Assembly: GCA_028284955.1 (NCBI GenBank)
Contig: JANQQS010000057.1
Coordinates: 1-43,811, forward strand
DNA length: 43,811 bases
Origin: Myxococcota bacterium
Lineage (GTDB): Bacteria; Myxococcota_A; Polyangia; Polyangiales; Houyiibacteriaceae
Reading direction: 5' to 3'
A program made the position numbers and the translations under genes. The notes beneath the pieces were generated by a model that saw only the letters and a list, made by a program, of their open reading frames with translations, was not told the DNA's origin and did not search any database. Shown piece by piece: positions 9,917 through 43,748 of the stretch. Every line of letters starts with the position of its first letter. The stretch's first letter is position 1.

Positions 9917-10272
9917 AGATTCGGTCTTCTCCCGGTCGAGGGCGAAGGTACTACCGCAACCCGCAACTCAACGCAAAGCGAAGCTCGAAACGTCGCAAGC
10001 GACCGGAATGCGCTTGCGGCCCGGCCGTGATGCACGTACATCGCTCCTGTCTGGGGAAGTTTACGCCGTATCATCGATTCTTTGCGCGCGGGATCAGCCG
10101 AGCCATCTACGTTTGCGGAGTCATCGGCCTACACGCGCCCAGGTTGCGTCGCGGAGGCGCACAGCGACACGTCGGCGAGCGAGCAGAAGTCTTACCGCAA
10201 CCTGGTATGCCTAGAGCGACATCCCGGCACGCCCGACGAGGCGCTCGAGACACATCCCAGCCCCCATCGCGA
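9917..10272. other. Intergenic region, no supported gene
   Basis: 356 bp between two minus-strand genes. Short open frames exist on the plus strand but have no ribosome binding site or recognisable content. No repeat or RNA was recognised. Confidence 0.5.
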
Positions 10273-11073
10273 CTAGGGGTCGCCCACAGGAGTGCCGACA
10301 GATGTAGAGGTACCCGCGTGGCCGACTGACGATGCATCGTCGGACTCATGGATGCAGTTCACGAGCGTGTTGACTCCGGAGTGGACGAAGTCTCCTTCGT
10401 ACGAGTCGTCTAGGCCTTTGCAGTCGAGGCTCGGTTTCTCCGCTGGCACGTCTCTGCACGAGTCCGTCAGCGTACTGGTGATCGAAGCCTGGCAGTGCGC
10501 TTCGGTCATGCATGCGGCGTTGTTCGTCGCCACTCGGATATCCTCCTCAATGCCCGAAATCAGCGCCTTCGCGACCTCTGCGACCGCCGCAACGTCATCG
10601 CTCCCCGCAAGTTGCGGAAGCACCCTGTTCATGGCCGCCAAAACCGAATCGTCACAGTCCTCCTGGGTGCTGCACGAAACCGGCTTGCTCTTCCCGTCGC
10701 AAGCAAAGACCTGTTCAAAAACGCGGTCGAAATCCACCGAGTTGATGGACGCCTCCTCTGTCTCTGCGCCCTCTTCCTCTCCTTGACCGCTGCCCGTATC
10801 TCGGGTCAAGAGGCCACTGTTGAGCTCCGCTTGGCCGGCCTTCCATACCGCCGCCTCAAAGCCACACCCGCAGAGCTTTTGAGCCTCGACTCGTTGAGCG
10901 TCGACAAGTGTTTGATGTGTGGAGTTCACGAGGTTCGCCCACTCTTCTACCGTCCTCGGATTCGTCGAACTCGGATTTGGGCTCGACTTGAGCGCATCAC
11001 CGTCCTCCGACACCGACGCCATACAACCCGCAAGCACCACAAGTGTGCCCACCAAGACTCTTCGACTCATCAT
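10273..11073 (-). CDS. Cysteine-rich lipoprotein, function unknown
   Basis: 266 residues. MMSRRVLVGTLVVLAGC is a short lipoprotein signal with cysteine 17. The mature part is acidic and contains about ten further cysteines (CGCGFEAAVW, ACDGKSKPVSCSTQEDC, AACMTEAHC, DSCRDV, LDCKGL, VNCIHES), suggesting disulfides in an exported protein. A Ser/Thr/Gly-rich tail closes it. It starts at tandem ATG codons. No domain family is recognised. Confidence 0.7.
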   Translation of the reverse strand: MMSRRVLVGTLVVLAGCMASVSEDGDALKSSPNPSSTNPRTVEEWANLVNSTHQTLVDAQRVEAQKLCGCGFEAAVWKAGQAELNSGLLTRDTGSGQGEEEGAETEEASINSVDFDRVFEQVFACDGKSKPVSCSTQEDCDDSVLAAMNRVLPQLAGSDDVAAVAEVAKALISGIEEDIRVATNNAACMTEAHCQASITSTLTDSCRDVPAEKPSLDCKGLDDSYEGDFVHSGVNTLVNCIHESDDASSVGHAGTSTSVGTPVGDP

Positions 11074-13248: not shown

Positions 13249-13752
13249 TCACCGGCGGCGCACTTCAGCACCCCGCGCCAGCTCTTTGATGCGGCCGACC
13301 ATGGCCAATAGGCCGCTGTTGCGGCCGGGGCTGAGGTGTTGGTCGAGGCCGAGCTGGGCGAAGATGGGCTGGGGGTCGTAGCGCGCAATTTCTTCGGGGG
13401 TGCGGCCGGAAAATAGTTCGAGGAGCATGGCTACGAGACCACGGACGATGTGCGCATCGCTATCCGCAGCGAACTTAATTGTGCCACTTTTGTCACAACT
13501 CGCAGACTTAATGAGCCAAACTTGGCTTTGGCAGCCGGCGACTAGGTTGCCGGGGATTTTGTGTTCGTCGCTTAGTTTGGGGAGCGCTTGGCCGAGCTCG
13601 ATGATGTATTCGTAGCGATCCATCCAGTCATCGAGGCAGGAAAAGGCCTCGAGTATCGCGCACGCGGCGTCCGGTTGGTCGCCCGCGGAGTCCGCAGGGC
13701 TGGCAGCGTCAGAGACGGTCGCAGGGTCAGACTGGTCAGCGGAATTGGTCAC
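13249..13752 (-). CDS. sufE: SufE/CsdE-type sulfur acceptor
   Basis: SufE takes persulfide from a cysteine desulfurase and passes it to the SUF scaffold for Fe-S cluster assembly. After a Ser/Ala/Asp-rich leader of about 30 residues come LDDWMDRYEYIIELGQALPKL, then NLVAGCQSQVWL with the persulfide cysteine C74, then KFAADSDAHIVRGLVAMLLELFSGRTPEEI. This is the complete family core. The ATG overlaps the stop of the upstream 1038-residue membrane enzyme by four bases (ATGA), so it is translationally coupled to an unrelated function. No sufS or sufB lies in the window. Confidence 0.95.
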   Translation of the reverse strand: MTNSADQSDPATVSDAASPADSAGDQPDAACAILEAFSCLDDWMDRYEYIIELGQALPKLSDEHKIPGNLVAGCQSQVWLIKSASCDKSGTIKFAADSDAHIVRGLVAMLLELFSGRTPEEIARYDPQPIFAQLGLDQHLSPGRNSGLLAMVGRIKELARGAEVRRR

Positions 13753-16700
13753 GGTTCTTTCTTGCCGTCTTCTCCATTCATATAGCCCAGCGCTTCGAGT
13801 TGATCCGCTACTTCGTCGATCGAGACTGAAGTTCCCTTCGCGGCGGACGCTGCGGCGCCCTTGCGCGACTGAATCAACGTCGCCATCACCGCTTCGGTCG
13901 TTTTCTGATCGTCCGACGAAAGATTTTTTTGTTCGGCCGGGTCGTTATCGACGCGATAGAGCTCGACCGGCTCAAGCCCGCGCGGGTTGCCGGCGTTGGC
14001 GGTGATGAGCTTGAACTCGCCCGCGACGCCCGCCGCCGGGCTGTCTCGCCGCTCGCGAACCGATTCGAGCACGTTGCCCTCGTGGCTTTCCTCGGCGTAC
14101 ACCACCGCCGCGCCTTCGGGATCGAACACGCTCTTTCCCTGTACGCCTTTGGGCACTGCCAAGCCAGCTTCCTCGAGCACCGTGGGCATCAAATCGATGC
14201 TCTGCACCCATTGCCGCGCCACCGTGCCGCCGCGCCGATTCTGGGGCAGCTTGATGAAGAGCGGCACCCGAACCTGTTCGTCGTAGAGCGTTGTGCCGTG
14301 CCAGAAACCGCCATGCTCGCCGAACTCTTCGCCGTGGTCTGAAGTGACGACGATGGTCAGGTCGTCGTAGAGCTGGCGGCGTTTGAGGTCTCGCAGGAGC
14401 GCGCCGAACTCTTGGTCCCAGAAGCTGATTTCGCCGTCGTAGAGCGCGCGCAAACGGCTCGCTTCGCTCGGGTCGGGGTGAGGATGCGCCGCGCGGGCGT
14501 AGCCGCTTCCTGAATAGGGATGCTCGAAATAGGGATCGTGCGGGTCCATGTAGCCCACGAACGCAAAAAACGGCTTTGCGTTTGCCGCGCGTTTATCGAG
14601 CCAGGCGCCAAGCGCTCGATTGACGGTCGTCGCGTCTTGGTAGGCAGCGCCCGGCTCCACTGTCCCGCGTGATGCGCGCAGGCGCTCGATGCGCTGGCGA
14701 ACGAACTGCAGCATCAAGAGCTTCGCGCTGGCGTCGTCGGCCCCAAGCACGAACTCGGGTTCGAGATAGCGATATTCATCGAAGCCTTGGTGGAAGTTGA
14801 AGTAGGGGCCGACGTTGAAGTTGGTCACCAATCCGAAGGTGGCGTAGCCAGAAGACTTCAGCGCTTCGGGTAAGGTCGTGAGTTCATCGGGCAGCGTATC
14901 GCTTTTGGCCATCACGCTATGGCTCGAGGGCAAGCGGCCGGTGAGCATCGAGGCAAAGCTCGGCCGGGTCCAGCTCGCGTTGGCGAACGCCTGGTCGAAG
15001 CGCACCGCGTCGTGCGCAAAGGCATCGAGATGGGGCGTTCGGCCGGCGGTGTAGCCGTAGGCGGGAAGGTGGTCGGCGCGCAGCGTATCGATCACGATGA
15101 AGAGCACGTTGCCAGGCGACTTATCACCCGACGCAGGGCGGCCGGACGCCTTGGCGTTCGCTGCGGAGCCCGAATGAGCGCTGCCTGAATTGACCTCGCC
15201 CTGACCCATCGCGACCGCCGCGCCGAGGCCCACGCCGACCACGACTACGGCCAGCGCTGCCGATCCCCACGGCGCAAGCAGCCAATGCCGGGTTCTTCGC
15301 TGCGCCACGAACCCGAGCAGCGCCGAGAGCGTCCAATAGGCCGCTGCCGCGCCGAGCGCGCATCCCGCCAGCAAGCCCAGGCCGGGCAGGCTCTTCCAAA
15401 CGAGTTCCTCGTGAAAGACATCGCGCCGAATGCGAAACGCGGTCAGCGCAAAGCCAAGCGCCGCGACCCACATTCCGGCCATGCGCGCGTAGGCCAGCGG
15501 CTCGGGTGTAGCTGCGCGACGCATCCATACCCCCGACAAGGCCAGCGCAAACCCAAAGCCGCCGCTGAGCAAGGTCACCAGCGCCGCGTAAGCGACCGGC
15601 CCATAGAGCCATACCTGAAGGCCGGTTTGCCCTCCGCCCGACGCGGCGATGGCCGCGGCTTCCCCAAGCCCCACCAAGGTTCCCGCGATCAAGCCCGCGC
15701 TGATTCCGAGAGTCAGCCCTCGCAGCGGCCGCGGAAGTTCCCGATCGCTGACTTCGGGCACTTCGGCCACCGATTGCTGCTCGCGATCTGGGTCGGCCAC
15801 GCGAATGGCCGGTCTGTAATCGGAGCGACGAGCGACAAAGATCAACCCGCCGAACGCTGAAACGAACATTTCGCACGCGAACCCCACGACCGGAATGAGC
15901 ACGGCGATGGTGATGGGCATGCCGAGGCGCGAATAGAGCTGCACCGCGGCGGCTTCGCGAAGGCCGATGCCGTTGATCGAGGCGGGAATCAGCGTCGCCA
16001 AGATCTGAAGCGAAGAGCCGAAAAAGACTTCGCCCACGCCGAGCTTCACCCCCAGCGCGCGGGCTGCACACACATAGATCAGATTGTTGAACGCATGGGT
16101 GCCCACGCCGAGCAGCGCGGCTTGCGCCACGAGCATTCCCTTGCCTTGGTAGGCGCACACTGCATCGACCAAGGTGCGCACTTTGGGTTCGAAGTTGGAC
16201 GGAAGCCATCGCGCCACCACGCGAAAGAACCGCGGTCGCGCGAGGAACGTAAGCCCGACCGCAATCACGCCGAGGAAGAACCCATTGACGAGCAGAACGC
16301 CGCTGAGCCCGAGGAAGCGAAACCCAAATACAGAACTCGCCATCACCACCACGCCGAACGCAAGCTGGCCGAGCACCATCTCGACGCCAATTGTGGCGGT
16401 GGCGCGAGCGGTTTTTCCTGTGTGCTTGGCGACATCGTAGATGCGCCAGCCGCCAAATCCTGTAAACCCGCCAGGGGTAAACGCGCCCCAAAAGCGCGCG
16501 ATAAGAATCGAGCCCGCCAAGAAACGCCACGGCGCGAAGATCCCCTGGCCCGACAGCAGCCGTTGCCAGCGCACCATGCTGAAGCCGATGGCCACTAGCT
16601 GCATGCCCACCGCGGCGACGACCCAGCCCCAGCGCAGCGTGGAGAGCTGAACCATGACTTCTTCGGCCCCCGCGCGAGCGAGCACCTTGCGAAATACCAC

Positions 16701-16865
16701 CCACAGCATGGCCGCGGAAAATAGGATCTTGGCGAGCAGTACGAGCCGGCTGCGCCACGCATTAGACGAGGCCGCGCGGTCCGAGGCTCCCCCGGAAGAC
16801 GACGACGCGGAAGACGACGACGCGGAAGGCGCCGACCCAGGCAGCGTCTTGGTTTGAGTAAACAT
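13749..16865 (-). CDS. Fusion: AglD/LPG-synthase-like membrane domain plus sulfatase-like phosphotransferase
   Basis: 1038 residues. After a Ser/Ala-rich leader (to about residue 40), residues about 43-345 form a multi-helix domain of the UPF0104/AglD/MprF-flippase type (PWRFLAGSILIARFWGAFTP, GGFTGFGGWRIYDVAKHTGK, LIPASINGIGLREAAAVQLY). Further membrane helices run to about 545, then a sulfatase-fold domain from NVLFIVIDTLRADH (metal Asp about 594). The catalytic segment is SWTRPSFASMLTGR: the formylglycine C-x-P-x-R is replaced by T-x-P-x-F, so the nucleophile would be Thr634, as in phosphoglycerol or phosphoethanolamine transferases. TSDHGEEFGEHGGFWHG holds the remaining metal ligands. A lipid-linked head-group transferase is inferred. 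ATG 16865 has GAGG just upstream. It is coupled to sufE. Confidence 0.85.
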   Translation of the reverse strand: MFTQTKTLPGSAPSASSSSASSSSGGASDRAASSNAWRSRLVLLAKILFSAAMLWVVFRKVLARAGAEEVMVQLSTLRWGWVVAAVGMQLVAIGFSMVRWQRLLSGQGIFAPWRFLAGSILIARFWGAFTPGGFTGFGGWRIYDVAKHTGKTARATATIGVEMVLGQLAFGVVVMASSVFGFRFLGLSGVLLVNGFFLGVIAVGLTFLARPRFFRVVARWLPSNFEPKVRTLVDAVCAYQGKGMLVAQAALLGVGTHAFNNLIYVCAARALGVKLGVGEVFFGSSLQILATLIPASINGIGLREAAAVQLYSRLGMPITIAVLIPVVGFACEMFVSAFGGLIFVARRSDYRPAIRVADPDREQQSVAEVPEVSDRELPRPLRGLTLGISAGLIAGTLVGLGEAAAIAASGGGQTGLQVWLYGPVAYAALVTLLSGGFGFALALSGVWMRRAATPEPLAYARMAGMWVAALGFALTAFRIRRDVFHEELVWKSLPGLGLLAGCALGAAAAYWTLSALLGFVAQRRTRHWLLAPWGSAALAVVVVGVGLGAAVAMGQGEVNSGSAHSGSAANAKASGRPASGDKSPGNVLFIVIDTLRADHLPAYGYTAGRTPHLDAFAHDAVRFDQAFANASWTRPSFASMLTGRLPSSHSVMAKSDTLPDELTTLPEALKSSGYATFGLVTNFNVGPYFNFHQGFDEYRYLEPEFVLGADDASAKLLMLQFVRQRIERLRASRGTVEPGAAYQDATTVNRALGAWLDKRAANAKPFFAFVGYMDPHDPYFEHPYSGSGYARAAHPHPDPSEASRLRALYDGEISFWDQEFGALLRDLKRRQLYDDLTIVVTSDHGEEFGEHGGFWHGTTLYDEQVRVPLFIKLPQNRRGGTVARQWVQSIDLMPTVLEEAGLAVPKGVQGKSVFDPEGAAVVYAEESHEGNVLESVRERRDSPAAGVAGEFKLITANAGNPRGLEPVELYRVDNDPAEQKNLSSDDQKTTEAVMATLIQSRKGAAASAAKGTSVSIDEVADQLEALGYMNGEDGKKEP

Positions 16866-16990
16866 CAACCTCGGCGGTACCCGGCCCAGCCGATTCGGTC
16901 AAATTGCAGGCTTCGCGCGCAAAGCGGGCGCGCGCTCGAGCGCTGGTGAAGAAATTTGCCTGGCGCGGAGGCCGCTGATAGCCACGTCTC

Positions 16991-38710: not shown

Positions 38711-39553
38711 TTAGGGCGCCGCTTGTTTCAGCTTCGATGCGATCGAGCAATCCACCGCCCCGAAGCTCTCAGGGCCGATGTTTGGACGTTTGGCTTGATG
38801 CGCGCCAAACCGTAGCCGCGCCGACACCAAACCTCCCGATGCCTGCACCCGTCCACGAAACAGCGGCTGCTTTGATTTCAGATCCCAAACAAACGCATCG
38901 ACCGGCCGAGTCCGACGGTTTCCCTGCTCCAGTACGAGGAAAAAGTATTCGCTTTCGATGAGACGCCGAAGTACCGGCAAGTCTCGCTCTATGTGCCTCG
39001 TCAGCTCTTCTTCAACGACGCGAAGTCGGAGCACGCTGTCGGTTTCAGGAATACGGCGCCGCCATCGAGAAGACAGGAAATCTCCTCGTGCGTACAAGCC
39101 TCGAGCCGACAGCGGAGCCAGCCCCAAGCAGCGGCCAATGGCGTCCGGTTTGAGCGAACGAGCGGCCTGCTGAATCTGCTCTGGACGATTCGCTCGGGAA
39201 ATCGGTAGACGTAGGTAGAGGCCTGTCCGGTCGTGAAGGTCGGAAAACTGAAAACCCTCCGCCACCCAATGATTCGGCTCTTGAGCTGCCGCGGCGCGCA
39301 CCCATCGATCGATCTGGTTTTGAAACTCGATGACCTGCCGTCCAGGCTGCGCCACCTTTTGCGCGTACGTCTGCTGCAATACGCCACGCAGCTCCGATAC
39401 TCGAACCTGCTCCCGTATGCGATATCCAACAACAAACGCGAGAAGCACGGCGACAACGCCGACCGCCCATGTCCAACGAACGCGGGGCGCGAATGCCTTG
39501 GAATCGGCTTCTTCAAACCGCGCAGGTCGCAGTTGCTCGTCAGAAGCAGTCAT
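38711..39553 (-). CDS. Membrane-anchored protein of the Exb/Tol cluster, function unknown
   Basis: 280 residues from ATG 39553; an upstream GTG (39559) adds two. A cytoplasmic N-terminus is followed by one membrane helix WTWAVGVVAVLLAFVVGYRI. A periplasmic part begins with a helical stretch (VSELRGVLQQTYAQKVAQPG, then RQVIEFQNQIDRWVRAAAAQ) and continues with a beta/alpha domain (HWVAEGFQFSDLHDRTGLYLR and later VFVWDLKSKQPLF-type strands). It lies directly after two ExbD genes on the same strand, so it is a candidate partner or target of the motor. No family was recognised. Confidence 0.7.
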   Translation of the reverse strand: MTASDEQLRPARFEEADSKAFAPRVRWTWAVGVVAVLLAFVVGYRIREQVRVSELRGVLQQTYAQKVAQPGRQVIEFQNQIDRWVRAAAAQEPNHWVAEGFQFSDLHDRTGLYLRLPISRANRPEQIQQAARSLKPDAIGRCLGLAPLSARGLYARGDFLSSRWRRRIPETDSVLRLRVVEEELTRHIERDLPVLRRLIESEYFFLVLEQGNRRTRPVDAFVWDLKSKQPLFRGRVQASGGLVSARLRFGAHQAKRPNIGPESFGAVDCSIASKLKQAAP

Positions 39554-39581
39554 CCCCACACCGACGCAGAAGACGACGCGA

Positions 39582-40118
39582 TTACTCGCCTACTTTGTTC
39601 ACCGCGAAGTTGACGTTCGTGTAGCCCGCCTGCGCGGAAGAAAACATCACTTTCTTGATGATTCGATAGTCGATCGCCTCGTCCGCCTGCAAGATCACCG
39701 CGCCAGGAAACTCTTTCGCGGGATGCAATATGCTCCAGTTACGCTTCAGCGTTTCGAGGTTCTGGATCAGCGGTTCGATGCGGTCGACCTGCGCGCTCTG
39801 AAGGAGCGTATTGCTGTCCGCGACACGCGAGCCATCCAAAGTCACCACGCGGTTGTCGATCGCAATGATGGGCGCGATTTCAAGTTCGCTGGTGTTCGAC
39901 GCATCTGGCATCGTGATGCTCGGCTTCTGCGCCACGAGCTCACCCGACGCCGCAAACGACATCAGCAAAAACACGACCAGCACGATGAGAAAGTCGATGA
40001 AAGGAACTAGCGGAATCGACAGGTCGACCGGCTTGCGTCCTCCTCCAGCCACTTTGTCCCGCACAAATTTGAGCGGAATGCGGTGAAGCAATACTCGACC
40101 AGGCTTGGCTATCGGCAT
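39582..40118 (-). CDS. ExbD/TolR-type biopolymer transport protein
   Basis: 178 residues with the canonical single membrane helix IPLVPFIDFLIVLVVFLLMS. The ion-pathway aspartate D42 in PFIDF is kept. The periplasmic domain (SELEIAPIIAIDNRVVTLDG, then a helix, then VILQADEAIDYRIIKKVMFS) has the TolR/ExbD fold, ending in NVNFAVNK. It is one of two ExbD genes behind one ExbB. It would couple proton flow through the ExbB pentamer to work across the periplasm. Confidence 0.93.
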   Translation of the reverse strand: MPIAKPGRVLLHRIPLKFVRDKVAGGGRKPVDLSIPLVPFIDFLIVLVVFLLMSFAASGELVAQKPSITMPDASNTSELEIAPIIAIDNRVVTLDGSRVADSNTLLQSAQVDRIEPLIQNLETLKRNWSILHPAKEFPGAVILQADEAIDYRIIKKVMFSSAQAGYTNVNFAVNKVGE

Positions 40119-40179
40119 CGGGCGCTCTTTCTTCTAATCGTAAATCGACAAACGTACATCGGGTGACGCTCTCGCAGAG

Positions 40180-40647
40180 CTATTGATCGGACAGCGACAT
40201 GTCGGGAAAGCCTTCGCCGACCACCATGTCCATCGCGTCCACGATATCGTCATAGCGAACGCCGTCTTCGGGAACGACAGTGAGGTCTCGTCGATTGGGC
40301 TCAAGCCGCTTGCGATCCTGCAGCTTGCTGCGCAGCTCTTCGAGATCGTAGGTGTCGCCGTTCTTGGGAATATTGATGACATCGCCTGCGCTCGACGCCA
40401 ACACGTAGCCGCTGTTCTGAACCTGCAGTCGCACGATCACCCGCTCTTCGGGCGGCGGCTGGTCTTCGCTCTCCACTTGACCCGGAGTACGCTGGTTCGC
40501 GTTGATGCGCGCCAGCTGATTCCACACCGCAGTGACGAGCAAGAACATCACGCAGCACAGTAGAAGATCGATGAACGGAATCAGAGGGATTTCGGCGTCG
40601 AGCGCCTTCTTCCCTCCACCACCGCCTCCGACGTTTACGCCACCCAT
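40180..40647 (-). CDS. ExbD/TolR-type biopolymer transport protein
   Basis: 155 residues. After a Gly-rich start (GGVNVGGGGGGKK) the membrane helix is AEIPLIPFIDLLLCCVMFLL with aspartate D27. The periplasmic part has RVIVRLQVQNSGYVLASSAG and ends DMVVGEGFPDMSLSDQ. The gene begins 7 bp after the ExbB stop. A 61-bp gap precedes the second ExbD. Two different TolR-type proteins per motor is the composition of the myxobacterial Agl motor. Confidence 0.93.
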   Translation of the reverse strand: MGGVNVGGGGGGKKALDAEIPLIPFIDLLLCCVMFLLVTAVWNQLARINANQRTPGQVESEDQPPPEERVIVRLQVQNSGYVLASSAGDVINIPKNGDTYDLEELRSKLQDRKRLEPNRRDLTVVPEDGVRYDDIVDAMDMVVGEGFPDMSLSDQ

Positions 40648-40654
40648 GCTCGCC

Positions 40655-41308
40655 TCAAACCGCTTGCTGCAGGCCCTGGAGGTTCACCTTGGAGCGGTTG
40701 TTGACCACCAGGTTCATCACCTGAACCGTCGCCGCATTGATGTCGTCGAGCAACGTCTGCGTCTTGCCGTTCAGCACCGCAAATCCCATGAGCGCAATGA
40801 TGGCCGCGATAAGGCCGAACGCCGTGCAGTTCATCGCCTCCGAGATGCCCTTCGCGAGCATGGTAGCCTTCGAGGTCGCGTCGGCTCCGGCCACTGCCGC
40901 GAACGCCGTAATCAGACCGACGACCGTGCCGAACAGCCCCGAGAGCATGGCCAGATTCGCGAGTAGCGCGAGGTAGCCAGTGCGGTGCTCGATCAGCGGA
41001 AGCTCACGCAGCGCCGACTCATCCATCGCAGCCTGTACTTCAGCGTCCGGCCGATTGACCTTCATGAGGCCCGCCTTGACGATGCGCGCGAGGGGCGCGT
41101 TCGCCGCCGAACAAAGCTTGATGGCTCGCCCGATGTCGCCAGCAAGAATGCATTTCTGCATCGTCGCGAGAAACACATCCTTGTTGATGGAGCTCTTATA
41201 GAGATACACGGAGCGCTCCACAATCACTCCAATGGCCACGATGAGCCAGAAGAGGATGATGTACATTGCCCAGCCGCCCTCTTCAAAGTGATGCGCGAGT
41301 GCCGACAT
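40655..41308 (-). CDS. ExbB/TolQ-type proton channel
   Basis: 217 residues. A first membrane helix AMYIILFWLIVAIGVIVERS is followed by a cytoplasmic helical bundle. The two C-terminal helices are LALLANLAMLSGLFGTVVGLITAF, about residues 113-136, and TAFGLIAAIIALMGFAVLNG. GLFGTVVGL and the threonine in the last helix are the conserved channel features of ExbB/TolQ/MotA. The start ATG 41308 has AGGAGG six bases upstream. It is the first gene of the leftward cluster and divergent from a second ExbB at 41968. Confidence 0.95.
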   Translation of the reverse strand: MSALAHHFEEGGWAMYIILFWLIVAIGVIVERSVYLYKSSINKDVFLATMQKCILAGDIGRAIKLCSAANAPLARIVKAGLMKVNRPDAEVQAAMDESALRELPLIEHRTGYLALLANLAMLSGLFGTVVGLITAFAAVAGADATSKATMLAKGISEAMNCTAFGLIAAIIALMGFAVLNGKTQTLLDDINAATVQVMNLVVNNRSKVNLQGLQQAV

Positions 41309-41314
41309 TCATAG

Positions 41315-41335
41315 CCTCCTGAACCGGTGCGGTTC
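41315..41335 (-). promoter_or_regulatory. Ribosome binding site with adjoining hairpin, leftward exbB
   Basis: On the minus strand GAACCG-CAC-CGGTTC (41335-41321) abuts AGGAGG (41320-41315), which lies six bases before the exbB ATG. A hairpin right beside the ribosome binding site can influence translation. Confidence 0.5.
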
Positions 41336-41731
41336 GCAACCTTGAGCGACGTTCCGAAGCGACCCAATCGCCGCCAAACGTTCGCTTTTACCCTAACAAA
41401 ACTGTTGTTACTTTTGATCGCAGAATGCGAAATGCCTCGGAATAACCAGTGTTTACCCGGGACAACACACAGCCACACGATGATACTGAGCCGGAATCAC
41501 AAGTCAACTGTGTAACGACTCAACTGTCCTGCCCGGCGCCACGAGATACTCGGGCACCGTTCTTGGGGTTAGTGTCCCGTCCTCACGATTGGTTCCCGAG
41601 CTCCTCGATCAATCGTTTCGGGCAATCGTTTCGGGAGGGCTCGCGATCGAGTCCAGGCTATCGATCCGTCGGCGTTTCGGAGGAAAACAGCCACACCGAA
41701 CACTTTCTGTAAAAAGAGCATGTCCTCTTCG

Positions 41732-41761
41732 TTGACATCTCCGATAACGCTGGGGTAGTTT
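41732..41761 (+). promoter_or_regulatory. Candidate promoter of the rightward Exb/Tol cluster
   Basis: An exact -35 TTGACA (41732-41737), 18 bp spacer and TAGTTT (41756-41761). Transcription would begin near 41768, leaving a leader of about 200 bases before the exbB ATG. Confidence 0.4.
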
Positions 41762-41967
41762 CGCAGTCGGAATCTCGGCCATTGGCGGACAGAGCTAACG
41801 ATTTCAACGGATTCCACCCGTCGCGCCAGCCAGATGGAAGGGGGCGGATGTGCGGCATAACGATGTGTCGCGCATTCCCAGCGTGCACCAGTGGCAAGCG
41901 GTTTTGGGCACAAGCGAGTGAAGCATAAGCGATTTCGGCGCGGGCGAACTGAAGGAGCCTATATCTG

Positions 41968-42600
41968 ATGGAAGAAATCTGGCATGCATTGCAAGAAGGC
42001 GCGCCTTTTTCGTTTATCAACATTGGTGTGTTGGCCTTCGCCTTGGCCATCATCGCCGAACGGTCCGTGTTCATTCTCACGAAATACAGAGTGAACAGCA
42101 CGGAGTTCATGGCGCAGATTCGGAAACTTGTTCAGGCCGGCAACATCGACCGTGCCATCAAGCTTTGTGAGGCAGCCCCGCTCCCTCTTCTTCAGGTGGT
42201 GAAATCGGGTCTCACTCAGGTGAACCGAGGAGAAGAAGCCGTCATCGCGTCGATGGAAGAGCGTATGTCGGAGGTGCTGCCCGCGCTTGAAAAACGAATC
42301 GGGGCATTGTGGACGCTCGCAAATATCGCCACGCTGATTGGTCTTCTCGGGACCATTCGCGGTCTGATTCGAGCGTTCAAGGCGGTCGGTACGATCGACG
42401 ATCCCTCGCAGAAAACCGCGCTTCTCTCGGCCGGCATCGCGGAGGCGATGTGGAACACCTTCCTGGGTCTGTTCATCGCCGTGGTATGCATGGTGGCTCA
42501 CTTGTTCCTCCATGGCATGGCGAAGAAGCACAAGCTCGACATGGAGAAGTCGACCATGAAACTCGAGAATCTACTCACCCTGCGTCGCCAGGGGAGCTGA
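41968..42600 (+). CDS. ExbB/TolQ-type proton channel
   Basis: 210 residues. The first helix is FINIGVLAFALAIIAERSVF. The channel helices are LWTLANIATLIGLLGTIRGLI and MWNTFLGLFIAVVCMVAHLF, with the conserved GLLGTIxGLI and the channel threonine (WNTFLG). AAGGAG (41952-41957) lies 10 bases before the ATG. Sequence identity to the leftward ExbB is low by eye, so these are separate lineages rather than a fresh duplication. It is the first gene of an ExbB-ExbD-ExbD operon with short 18- and 11-bp gaps. Confidence 0.95.
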   Translation: MEEIWHALQEGAPFSFINIGVLAFALAIIAERSVFILTKYRVNSTEFMAQIRKLVQAGNIDRAIKLCEAAPLPLLQVVKSGLTQVNRGEEAVIASMEERMSEVLPALEKRIGALWTLANIATLIGLLGTIRGLIRAFKAVGTIDDPSQKTALLSAGIAEAMWNTFLGLFIAVVCMVAHLFLHGMAKKHKLDMEKSTMKLENLLTLRRQGS

Positions 42601-42618
42601 TTCCACCCCGACCTGTTC

Positions 42619-43173
42619 ATGGCGCAACTCACTGCACAGCAGCGTCGCTATATCCGGAAGCACACGAAGGACCACGAGTTGGATCCTTCGGAGACTTCGG
42701 AAGAGCTCAACATCGTTCCGTTTCTCGACATCGTCGTGAATCTGATCATGTTCTTGCTGATGTCGATTTCGGCGGTTGCATTTTTCTCGCAGGTGGAGGC
42801 ATCTCTCCCCGAGTATTCACGCGGTGGCGTCGGCAGACGCTCTGCGGAACCATCGCTCAACCTCAACCTCACGATTACCAATCGCGGTGTGATCGTGTCT
42901 GGCTCGGGCGGGAAGCTCTCGCCAGGGTGCGTGAACACATCGACTGGGCGCGTGCTTACCGTAGTGAAGCGACCCAACGGGGAGCACGATTGGAACGCGC
43001 TAACGGCTTGCGCAGCCAAAGTGAAGGAAAACTTCCCCGATGAGTTCCGGGTCACGGTGAGTGCGGATCCGGTCGTGGAATACCAGGATGTCATCAGCGC
43101 GATGGACGCTGTGCGCAGCAAAGGGGATAAAGAACTCTTTCCCGAAGTCTTACTCTCCGCTGGAGTACGCTGA
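42619..43173 (+). CDS. ExbD/TolR-type biopolymer transport protein
   Basis: 184 residues. A basic cytoplasmic N-terminus (RRYIRKHTKDHELDPSETSE) precedes ELNIVPFLDIVVNLIMFLLMS, with the ion-path aspartate D37. The periplasmic part is unusual: PSLNLNLTITNRGVIVSGSG is followed by GCVNTSTG and LTACAAKVKENF, giving two cysteines that could form a disulfide. It ends DVISAMDAVRSKGDKELFPE, as usual for ExbD. It is the second gene of the rightward motor operon. Confidence 0.92.
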   Translation: MAQLTAQQRRYIRKHTKDHELDPSETSEELNIVPFLDIVVNLIMFLLMSISAVAFFSQVEASLPEYSRGGVGRRSAEPSLNLNLTITNRGVIVSGSGGKLSPGCVNTSTGRVLTVVKRPNGEHDWNALTACAAKVKENFPDEFRVTVSADPVVEYQDVISAMDAVRSKGDKELFPEVLLSAGVR

Positions 43174-43184
43174 GGACAGTCGTT

Positions 43185-43748
43185 ATGAGCGCCGAACAGC
43201 CCGCGTCTATAGGTCAGGTCAAGCAGATCATCAGGCGGCGTCTTCGGCGCAAGCCCGAGCACCAGTCTGAGGGAATCAATATCTATCCGATGATGGATAT
43301 GATGACGATTCTGTTGGTGTTCATGGTCATGCAGTTCGCGTCATCGACCGCCGCGGTGGTGCAAGAGAGCGAAGAGCTCCGCATTCCGTACTCGACGTCA
43401 CGAGTTCAACTCGACGACGCAGTACCCATTCAGATCTCGCGAAGTGAAATCGTTGTCGATGGAGACCGCGTGATCGATCTCCGCAGCGGCACGGTCGACC
43501 CGAGCAACAAGCAAGGCGGAGGAACGGGGTTTTTGATCACTCCGCTGTTCCGCAAGCTGGAGCAGATTCGCGACCTCAAGAAAATGATCGCTCAGCAAAA
43601 CTCAAGGCGGCCCTTCGAGGGAAACGTGCAGATCATCGCCGACCGACGAACCCCGTTTCGTACGCTCTCCGAGGTGATCTACACGCTTGGTCAAACCGAG
43701 TTCAAAAACATGCGGTTCGTGGTCAACAAGCCGCCGCTCAAGCGCTGA
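43185..43748 (+). CDS. ExbD/TolR-type biopolymer transport protein
   Basis: 187 residues. An arginine-rich N-terminus (QIIRRRLRRKPEHQ) precedes INIYPMMDMMTILLVFMVMQ with aspartate D38 in the membrane helix. The periplasmic domain has VPIQISRSEIVVDGDRVIDL, a Gly-rich loop (NKQGGGTGF) and ends VIYTLGQTEFKNMRFVVNKP, close to the C-terminal strand of the leftward 178-residue ExbD (VNFAVNK). It is the last gene of the operon visible here. A two-hairpin element (E7) follows the stop by six bases. Confidence 0.93.
   Translation: MSAEQPASIGQVKQIIRRRLRRKPEHQSEGINIYPMMDMMTILLVFMVMQFASSTAAVVQESEELRIPYSTSRVQLDDAVPIQISRSEIVVDGDRVIDLRSGTVDPSNKQGGGTGFLITPLFRKLEQIRDLKKMIAQQNSRRPFEGNVQIIADRRTPFRTLSEVIYTLGQTEFKNMRFVVNKPPLKR

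Follow-up and report, generated by a model that had tools for sequence, protein, structure and literature searches.

Two divergent Agl-type motor gene sets and an order-specific single-helix protein in a Polyangiales myxobacterium

Could two gliding-type motors be kept side by side on the chromosome of a myxobacterium? The window analyzed here, 43,811 nucleotides long, is one complete contig (C30; JANQQS010000057.1 of assembly GCA_028284955.1) of the 6.07-Mb draft genome of a Polyangiales myxobacterium. It carries two divergent gene trios, each with one ExbB/TolQ homologue and two ExbD/TolR homologues, and the left one is followed by the gene of a 282-amino-acid (282-aa) single-helix protein. 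We consider it probable that the left (L) and right (R) trios encode two paralogous proton motors of the AglRQS type, which act in trans on Glt/Nfs-like complexes, and that the 282-aa protein is a partner of the left motor. Agl-type gliding motors are of a known kind, and what is new is the conserved pairing of two of them together with an order-specific companion protein. No published description of the head-to-head pairing or of the 282-aa family was found in the literature searched (titles, abstracts and selected passages), where the survey of Luciano et al. (PMC3169522) took in Sorangium, Plesiocystis and Haliangium.

An earlier note, made from the sequence of this DNA, had described seven genes with two divergent trios of one ExbB and two ExbDs. 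All seven are intact and lie at the positions given there (Table 1). The two ExbBs match the Pfam family MotA_ExbB (E-values of 8.6e-25 and 9.6e-24) and the four ExbDs match the Pfam family ExbD (2.7e-18, 1.2e-13, 1.7e-13 and 5e-11), all above the gathering cut-offs. The ion-path aspartates named in the note (D27, D42, D37 and D38) proved exact, each at the TolR/ExbD position within the single transmembrane (TM) helix, and both conserved pore threonines of TolQ/ExbB are retained in BL and BR, the ExbBs of the left and right trios. The intergenic gaps are 7, 61 and 22 bp in the left cluster, the last being that between D2L and the 282-aa gene, and 18 and 11 bp in the right trio. Because the gaps within the trios are short, each trio looks like an operon, and both have the AglRQS-type composition, in which two different ExbD/TolR-like genes share an operon with a single ExbB/TolQ-like gene.

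An ExbB tree was built from 85 proteins, including TolQ and ExbB of E. coli as well as the Tol- and Ton-type ExbBs of this genome, and a second tree was built from the concatenate of all three trio proteins. In the ExbB tree every Agl-like motor is separate from TolQ and TonB-ExbB (100/100). Both trios fall in this Agl-type clade, which bears out the comparison with AglRQS made in the earlier note, and the phylogeny that it had proposed as a check, together with the neighbours in relatives, gave no TonB-ExbBD placement and no adjoining tonB. Nor do the relatives examined have tonB, tolA or pal next to the locus. The NCBIfam scores of the window motor proteins for tolQ, tolR, exbB and exbD (including TIGR02796 and TIGR02801) are all far under the cut-off. 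Furthermore, the genome has a Tol-type locus of its own on contig C193, where a TolR and a TolB_N protein accompany an ExbB that groups with E. coli TolQ, and on three contigs (C108, C115 and C158) motor genes have TonB_C proteins as neighbours. An ordinary Tol or Ton motor is rejected on the basis of the trees, the NCBIfam scores, the neighbours and these separate loci. Although the trios share protein families (Pfam ExbD and MotA_ExbB) with Tol and Ton motors, and the domain of the 282-aa partner is weakly TolB_N-like, the same evidence makes it highly improbable that both are Tol-like or Ton-like motors of envelope maintenance with no relation to Glt.

Within the Agl-type clade, BL belongs to the L lineage, which is spread over the Myxococcota, with support of 100/99 in the ExbB tree and 100/100 in the trio tree. 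BR belongs to the R lineage, which comprises motors of Polyangiales, Myxococcia and the loci L129 and L130 (100/98 and 100/99, respectively), and this lineage joins motors located inside Glt-core operons (99/94 and 97/93). Judged from these trees, L and R are two ancient paralogous lineages. The shapes of their Polyangiales subtrees mostly agree in the trio tree, and the deep placement of the genome's third motor and of the Bdellovibrio-group motors is unsure owing to long branches.

Then, which motors of Myxococcus xanthus do the two lineages correspond to? According to Luciano et al. (PMC3169522), the gliding machinery is encoded by the clusters G1, G2 and M1 (AglRQS), and a second motor, M2, is MXAN_3003-5, which PMC3858216 describes as the sole complete Agl set of M. 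xanthus apart from AglRQS. One AglRQS motor is reported to power Glt as well as Nfs in trans, with AglR binding GltG and NfsG (PMC3169522, PMC3858216). For MXAN_3003-5, PMC3858216 reports no role in motility or sporulation; the MXAN_3004 deletion is described as free of motility and sporulation phenotypes, and MXAN_3003 as binding neither GltG nor NfsG in two-hybrid assays (PMC3858216, PMC3169522). The scan for M. xanthus sequences listed matches in metagenome-assembled genomes (MAGs), Plesiocystis, Nannocystis and the Bdellovibrio group, with no Myxococcus among the matches listed. Each of the Myxococcaceae and Anaeromyxobacter MAGs examined has one L-type and one R-type ExbB, which parallels the two complete Agl sets of M. 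xanthus. The Pfam ExbD domain spans residues 16-156 of 161 and 28-177 of 191 in the L-type ExbDs of the Myxococcaceae, and 17-161 of 179 and 40-187 of 199 in the R-type ExbDs of the same MAGs, while the published spans are 15-158 of 162 for AglQ and 28-176 of 194 for AglS (PMC3169522). Because the lengths and Pfam coordinates of the L type, not those of the R type, match AglQ and AglS, L is most likely the AglRQS orthologue; with copy number also considered, R is most likely the orthologue of MXAN_3003-5.

The two trios are divergent in all 25 loci where both are intact. The right-hand ExbD was detected in 35 of 37 relatives, as was the 282-aa family, and the same layout occurs in MAGs named Sandaracinaceae and Myxococcales. 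Since the conservation across the order reaches 91% identity, chance is ruled out. The flanking genes vary among relatives (TRAP transporter, TPR protein with Lon protease, RelA/SpoT-domain protein, H+-pyrophosphatase, SNF2 helicase), and so does the right-hand neighbour, for which the TRAP transporter, the TPR protein with Lon and the H+-pyrophosphatase were found. Divergent L and R sets also occur in two genomes from another order (loci L129 and L130), where extra copies of the L-type ExbB are present, and in G328 an L-type ExbD lies immediately before the R trio on the same strand (locus L302), so that L and R are probably in tandem there. L and R are on separate contigs in the MAGs of Myxococcaceae and Anaeromyxobacter that were examined.

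Such adjacency could mean that the two motors form a coupled pair, being co-regulated, sharing subunits or opposing each other on a single Glt machine, and that the 282-aa protein couples or clamps them. The constant divergence of the neighbouring trios, its recurrence in another order, the probable tandem in G328 and the largely agreeing subtree shapes are all consistent with a coupled pair. However, adjacency by itself is no proof of shared function, the two motors are on different contigs in the MAGs mentioned above, and nothing points to mixed subunits. We regard such coupling as quite unlikely.

Some variants of the L set were also seen outside Polyangiales. Tandem copies of the L-type ExbB precede the two ExbDs in several other orders (loci L131, L132, L139, L141 and L200), and L129 and L130 each have apparently three L-type ExbB-like stretches. 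At loci L132, L134 and L148, a HEAT-repeat protein of 564-614 aa follows the L trio in place of the 282-aa protein.

What the motors drive had been called unknown in the earlier note. That question is now largely answered by three Glt modules without motor genes in the same genome (contigs C85, C88 and C183), which include GltC, GltE, full-length GltG and a GltI-like protein and are split from the motors as in M. xanthus. On C85, the full-length GltG (439 bits with the NCBIfam GltG model) is accompanied by GltC (279 bits), GltE (95 bits), a protein of 100 aa and three TPR proteins, one of them 1254 aa and another more than 2400 aa long; in its content this set is similar to the G1 cluster of M. 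xanthus. C88 and C183 carry two further Glt-like sets. No ExbD is present on these three contigs, and the 12 ExbD places of the genome are on C193, C115, C108, C196, C158, C182 and C30. Because these motorless modules show a split arrangement like that of M. xanthus, the Glt complexes are, by analogy, the likely cargo of L and R, which would drive them in trans. Direct links between motors and Glt genes exist in other genomes. For example, operons in other classes contain, in this order, a GltC-like gene, genes for a TPR protein of ~1200 aa and a protein of ~450 aa, an R-type ExbB-ExbD-ExbD trio and a GltG-like gene (loci L140, L195-L197 and L206-L208), and in G044 an L-type trio lies beside full-length GltG.

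The genome has a third Agl-type motor on C182, with its own AgmX/PglI-tailed TPR protein. In the first of its ExbDs (locus L013, G000:C182, positions 9969-10544, minus strand), asparagine replaces the ion-path aspartate (LLPFMNLF), and the second ExbD retains it. As read from these residues, just one of the two kinds of TolR-like subunit in this motor is protonatable.

The 282-aa protein is predicted to have ~26 cytoplasmic residues, a TM helix at ~27-45, a periplasmic helix extending to ~92 and an alpha/beta domain at ~105-282. In its AlphaFold2 model, built from seven sequences with a mean predicted local distance difference test score (pLDDT) of 80, a single helix (29-92) forms the TM segment and a periplasmic stalk, followed by the alpha/beta domain. 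The family is present in all 31 sampled Polyangiales genomes, and in none of the 156 other Myxococcota genomes save for one marginal partial match (E 5.6e-4). No sequence homology to a known family was found in Pfam, NCBIfam or PDB, a result that excludes no family. The fold of the domain weakly resembles LpoB, PelC, CsgG and the N-terminal domain of TolB; the Foldseek match to LpoB is weak (E 1.8e-3, prob 0.99), and the VIA-align Z-scores of 6.6 for Cj1090c (the best), 5.7 for PelC, 4.9 for LpoB and 4.4 for TolB are below the trustworthy level. C144 and C271 are invariant in 28/28 family members. Because this pair is kept in all of them, mostly as the sole cysteines, a periplasmic disulphide between the two is suggested. 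The members at L136, L137, L138 and L144 have four extra cysteines with six-residue spacing (e.g. 165, 171, 177 and 183), a short repeat that the other members lack. A TonB/TolA-like transducer was considered and is rejected by these marks: the docking histidine (SHLS motif) in the TM segment is present in just 2 of the 28 members and absent in the other 26, and no member matches the TonB_C domain.

The earlier note took the single-helix protein for a candidate adaptor, and the position of the 282-aa gene links it to the left motor. In 29 of the 31 sampled genomes it is no more than ~2.5 kb away from the L-type ExbB (coordinates compared by eye); in G030 it is within the L trio itself, and in G008 it and the L-type ExbB are at facing contig ends. 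In G007 and its congener G014, the latter outside the 31-genome sample, the gene has been relocated away from the motor locus. This relocation, like the lack of the TonB/TolA histidine motif, would fit a mere neighbour that is no part of the motor. However, both displaced copies lie beside an extra AglQ-like ExbD, which in G004 adjoins the 282-aa gene at the main locus, and the gene is near the L-type ExbB in nearly all sampled genomes and inside the trio in G030. A mere neighbour appears rather doubtful, and our best guess from the gene positions is a motor-associated periplasmic partner of the left motor. The extra AglQ-like ExbDs beside the 282-aa gene are located at L081 (10019-10579), L083 (8085-8696) and L088 (6002-6538), in two of the three genomes outside the main motor locus.

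Of this model, the genes, the trees and the conserved layout were observed directly, as were the Glt modules on other contigs and the range of genomes in which the partner occurs. In each motor, an ExbB/TolQ-like ring would surround two different TolR-like subunits, in a stoichiometry that we infer. Protons would presumably flow past the TM aspartates, so that the motor complex turns or cycles, and the force would be relayed in trans to envelope-spanning Glt/Nfs-like complexes through TonB-like GltG subunits encoded on other contigs. L would correspond to the Myxococcus AglRQS motor of gliding and the spore coat, and R to MXAN_3003-5. The order-specific 282-aa protein would be a partner of the left motor, anchored in the inner membrane by its helix and extending a disulphide-bonded domain into the periplasm.

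Several points weigh against this model. Lengths, domain coordinates and copy number are what tie L to AglRQS and R to MXAN_3003-5 one to one, and the link between partner and motor is purely positional. The Bdellovibrio-group motors are placed differently by the ExbB tree and the trio tree, and their placement was not used. The GltG scores are below the strict equivalog cut-off (439 vs. 650 bits here), as they are in all 187 sampled genomes. In addition, among the 200 genomes covered by the GltG search, family f18 of another order (G042, G050 and G058) has full-length GltG with a best L-type ExbB match of just 39%. Because 39% is the level of R-type motors, L is evidently not required by every Glt module. 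A rule that L or R always accompanies full-length GltG was tried and is not clean, since the f18 genomes with GltG lack a close match to the L type.

These f18 genomes, the sister position of R to the Glt-core-linked motors and the L trios of other orders that precede HEAT-repeat proteins rather than Glt genes might together indicate a swapped or mixed assignment, in which R is the main Glt/Nfs motor and L powers another envelope process. Nevertheless, the published lengths and Pfam coordinates of AglQ and AglS fit L and not R, the L trio of G044 lies beside full-length GltG, and the reported results for MXAN_3003 and MXAN_3004 show neither GltG/NfsG binding nor a deletion phenotype. A swap is consequently improbable, and the assignment of L to AglRQS and of R to MXAN_3003-5 is retained.

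In the literature searched, no role is assigned to MXAN_3003-5, the second Myxococcus motor. Our results suggest that its lineage is ancient in the Myxococcota, sister to the Glt-operon motors and placed head to head with an AglRQS-type motor across Polyangiales. With these features, a shared job of the two motors becomes a testable idea. Polyangiales might even use a coupled two-motor gliding-type machine, in which the AglRQS-type and M2-type motors are made and used together and the 282-aa subunit couples or clamps the AglRQS-type motor from the periplasm, but we hold this to be unlikely. The 282-aa family is a concrete candidate for a motor component outside Myxococcus, the model of gliding genetics.

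The coordinates of the locus are listed in Table 1. Elsewhere in the window (13749-16868, minus strand) there is a gene whose 1039-aa product joins a membrane domain of the lysylphosphatidylglycerol-synthase type to a sulfatase domain.

Table 1. Features of the divergent motor locus (positions in the window).
Feature	Position	Strand	Basis
282-aa single-helix protein	38711..39559	-	GTG start; no family match
D2L, ExbD/TolR homologue, 178 aa, AglS-like position, D42	39582..40118	-	Pfam, ion-path residue
D1L, ExbD/TolR homologue, 155 aa, AglQ-like position, D27	40180..40647	-	Pfam, ion-path residue
BL, ExbB/TolQ homologue, 217 aa, L lineage, most likely AglR orthologue	40655..41308	-	Pfam, trees
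Divergent intergenic region, 659 bp, between the two ExbB genes; putative site of both promoters	41309..41967	.	
BR, ExbB/TolQ homologue, 210 aa, R lineage, sister to Glt-core-operon ExbBs, most likely MXAN_3003-5-type (M2)	41968..42600	+	Pfam, trees
D1R, ExbD/TolR homologue, 184 aa, D37	42619..43173	+	Pfam, ion-path residue
D2R, ExbD/TolR homologue, 187 aa, D38	43185..43748	+	Pfam, ion-path residue

Compared with known systems, the locus shares its fold families and ion-path residues with TolQR and ExbBD, which differ in belonging to another clade (100/100), in having one TolR/ExbD per TolQ/ExbB and in encoding a transducer, TolA or TonB, at the same locus. The resemblance to AglRQS of M. xanthus (MXAN_6862-6860, cluster M1) is closer. 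Both consist of three consecutive genes, a TolQ-like one and two TolR-like ones, with the ion-path aspartate in both TolR-like proteins, and in both the motor is encoded apart from the Glt genes that it drives or would drive. However, in Polyangiales a second motor lies head to head with the L trio, and the 282-aa gene that follows this trio has no counterpart in the sampled genomes outside the order. MXAN_3003-3005 (M2) is the one complete Agl set of M. xanthus besides AglRQS, and R is likewise the one close lineage found besides L in the examined MAGs of Myxococcaceae and Anaeromyxobacter. However, R adjoins L in Polyangiales and some other lineages, whereas the two are on separate contigs in those MAGs. 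Finally, the Glt core operons with a built-in motor, termed 'Group B' by Luciano et al. (2011), contain a trio of the R kind with identical internal order, which is sister to R in the trees. There the trio is located between the GltC/GltD-like TPR genes and the GltG-like gene, whereas the trio in the window stands alone, with the Glt genes on other contigs.

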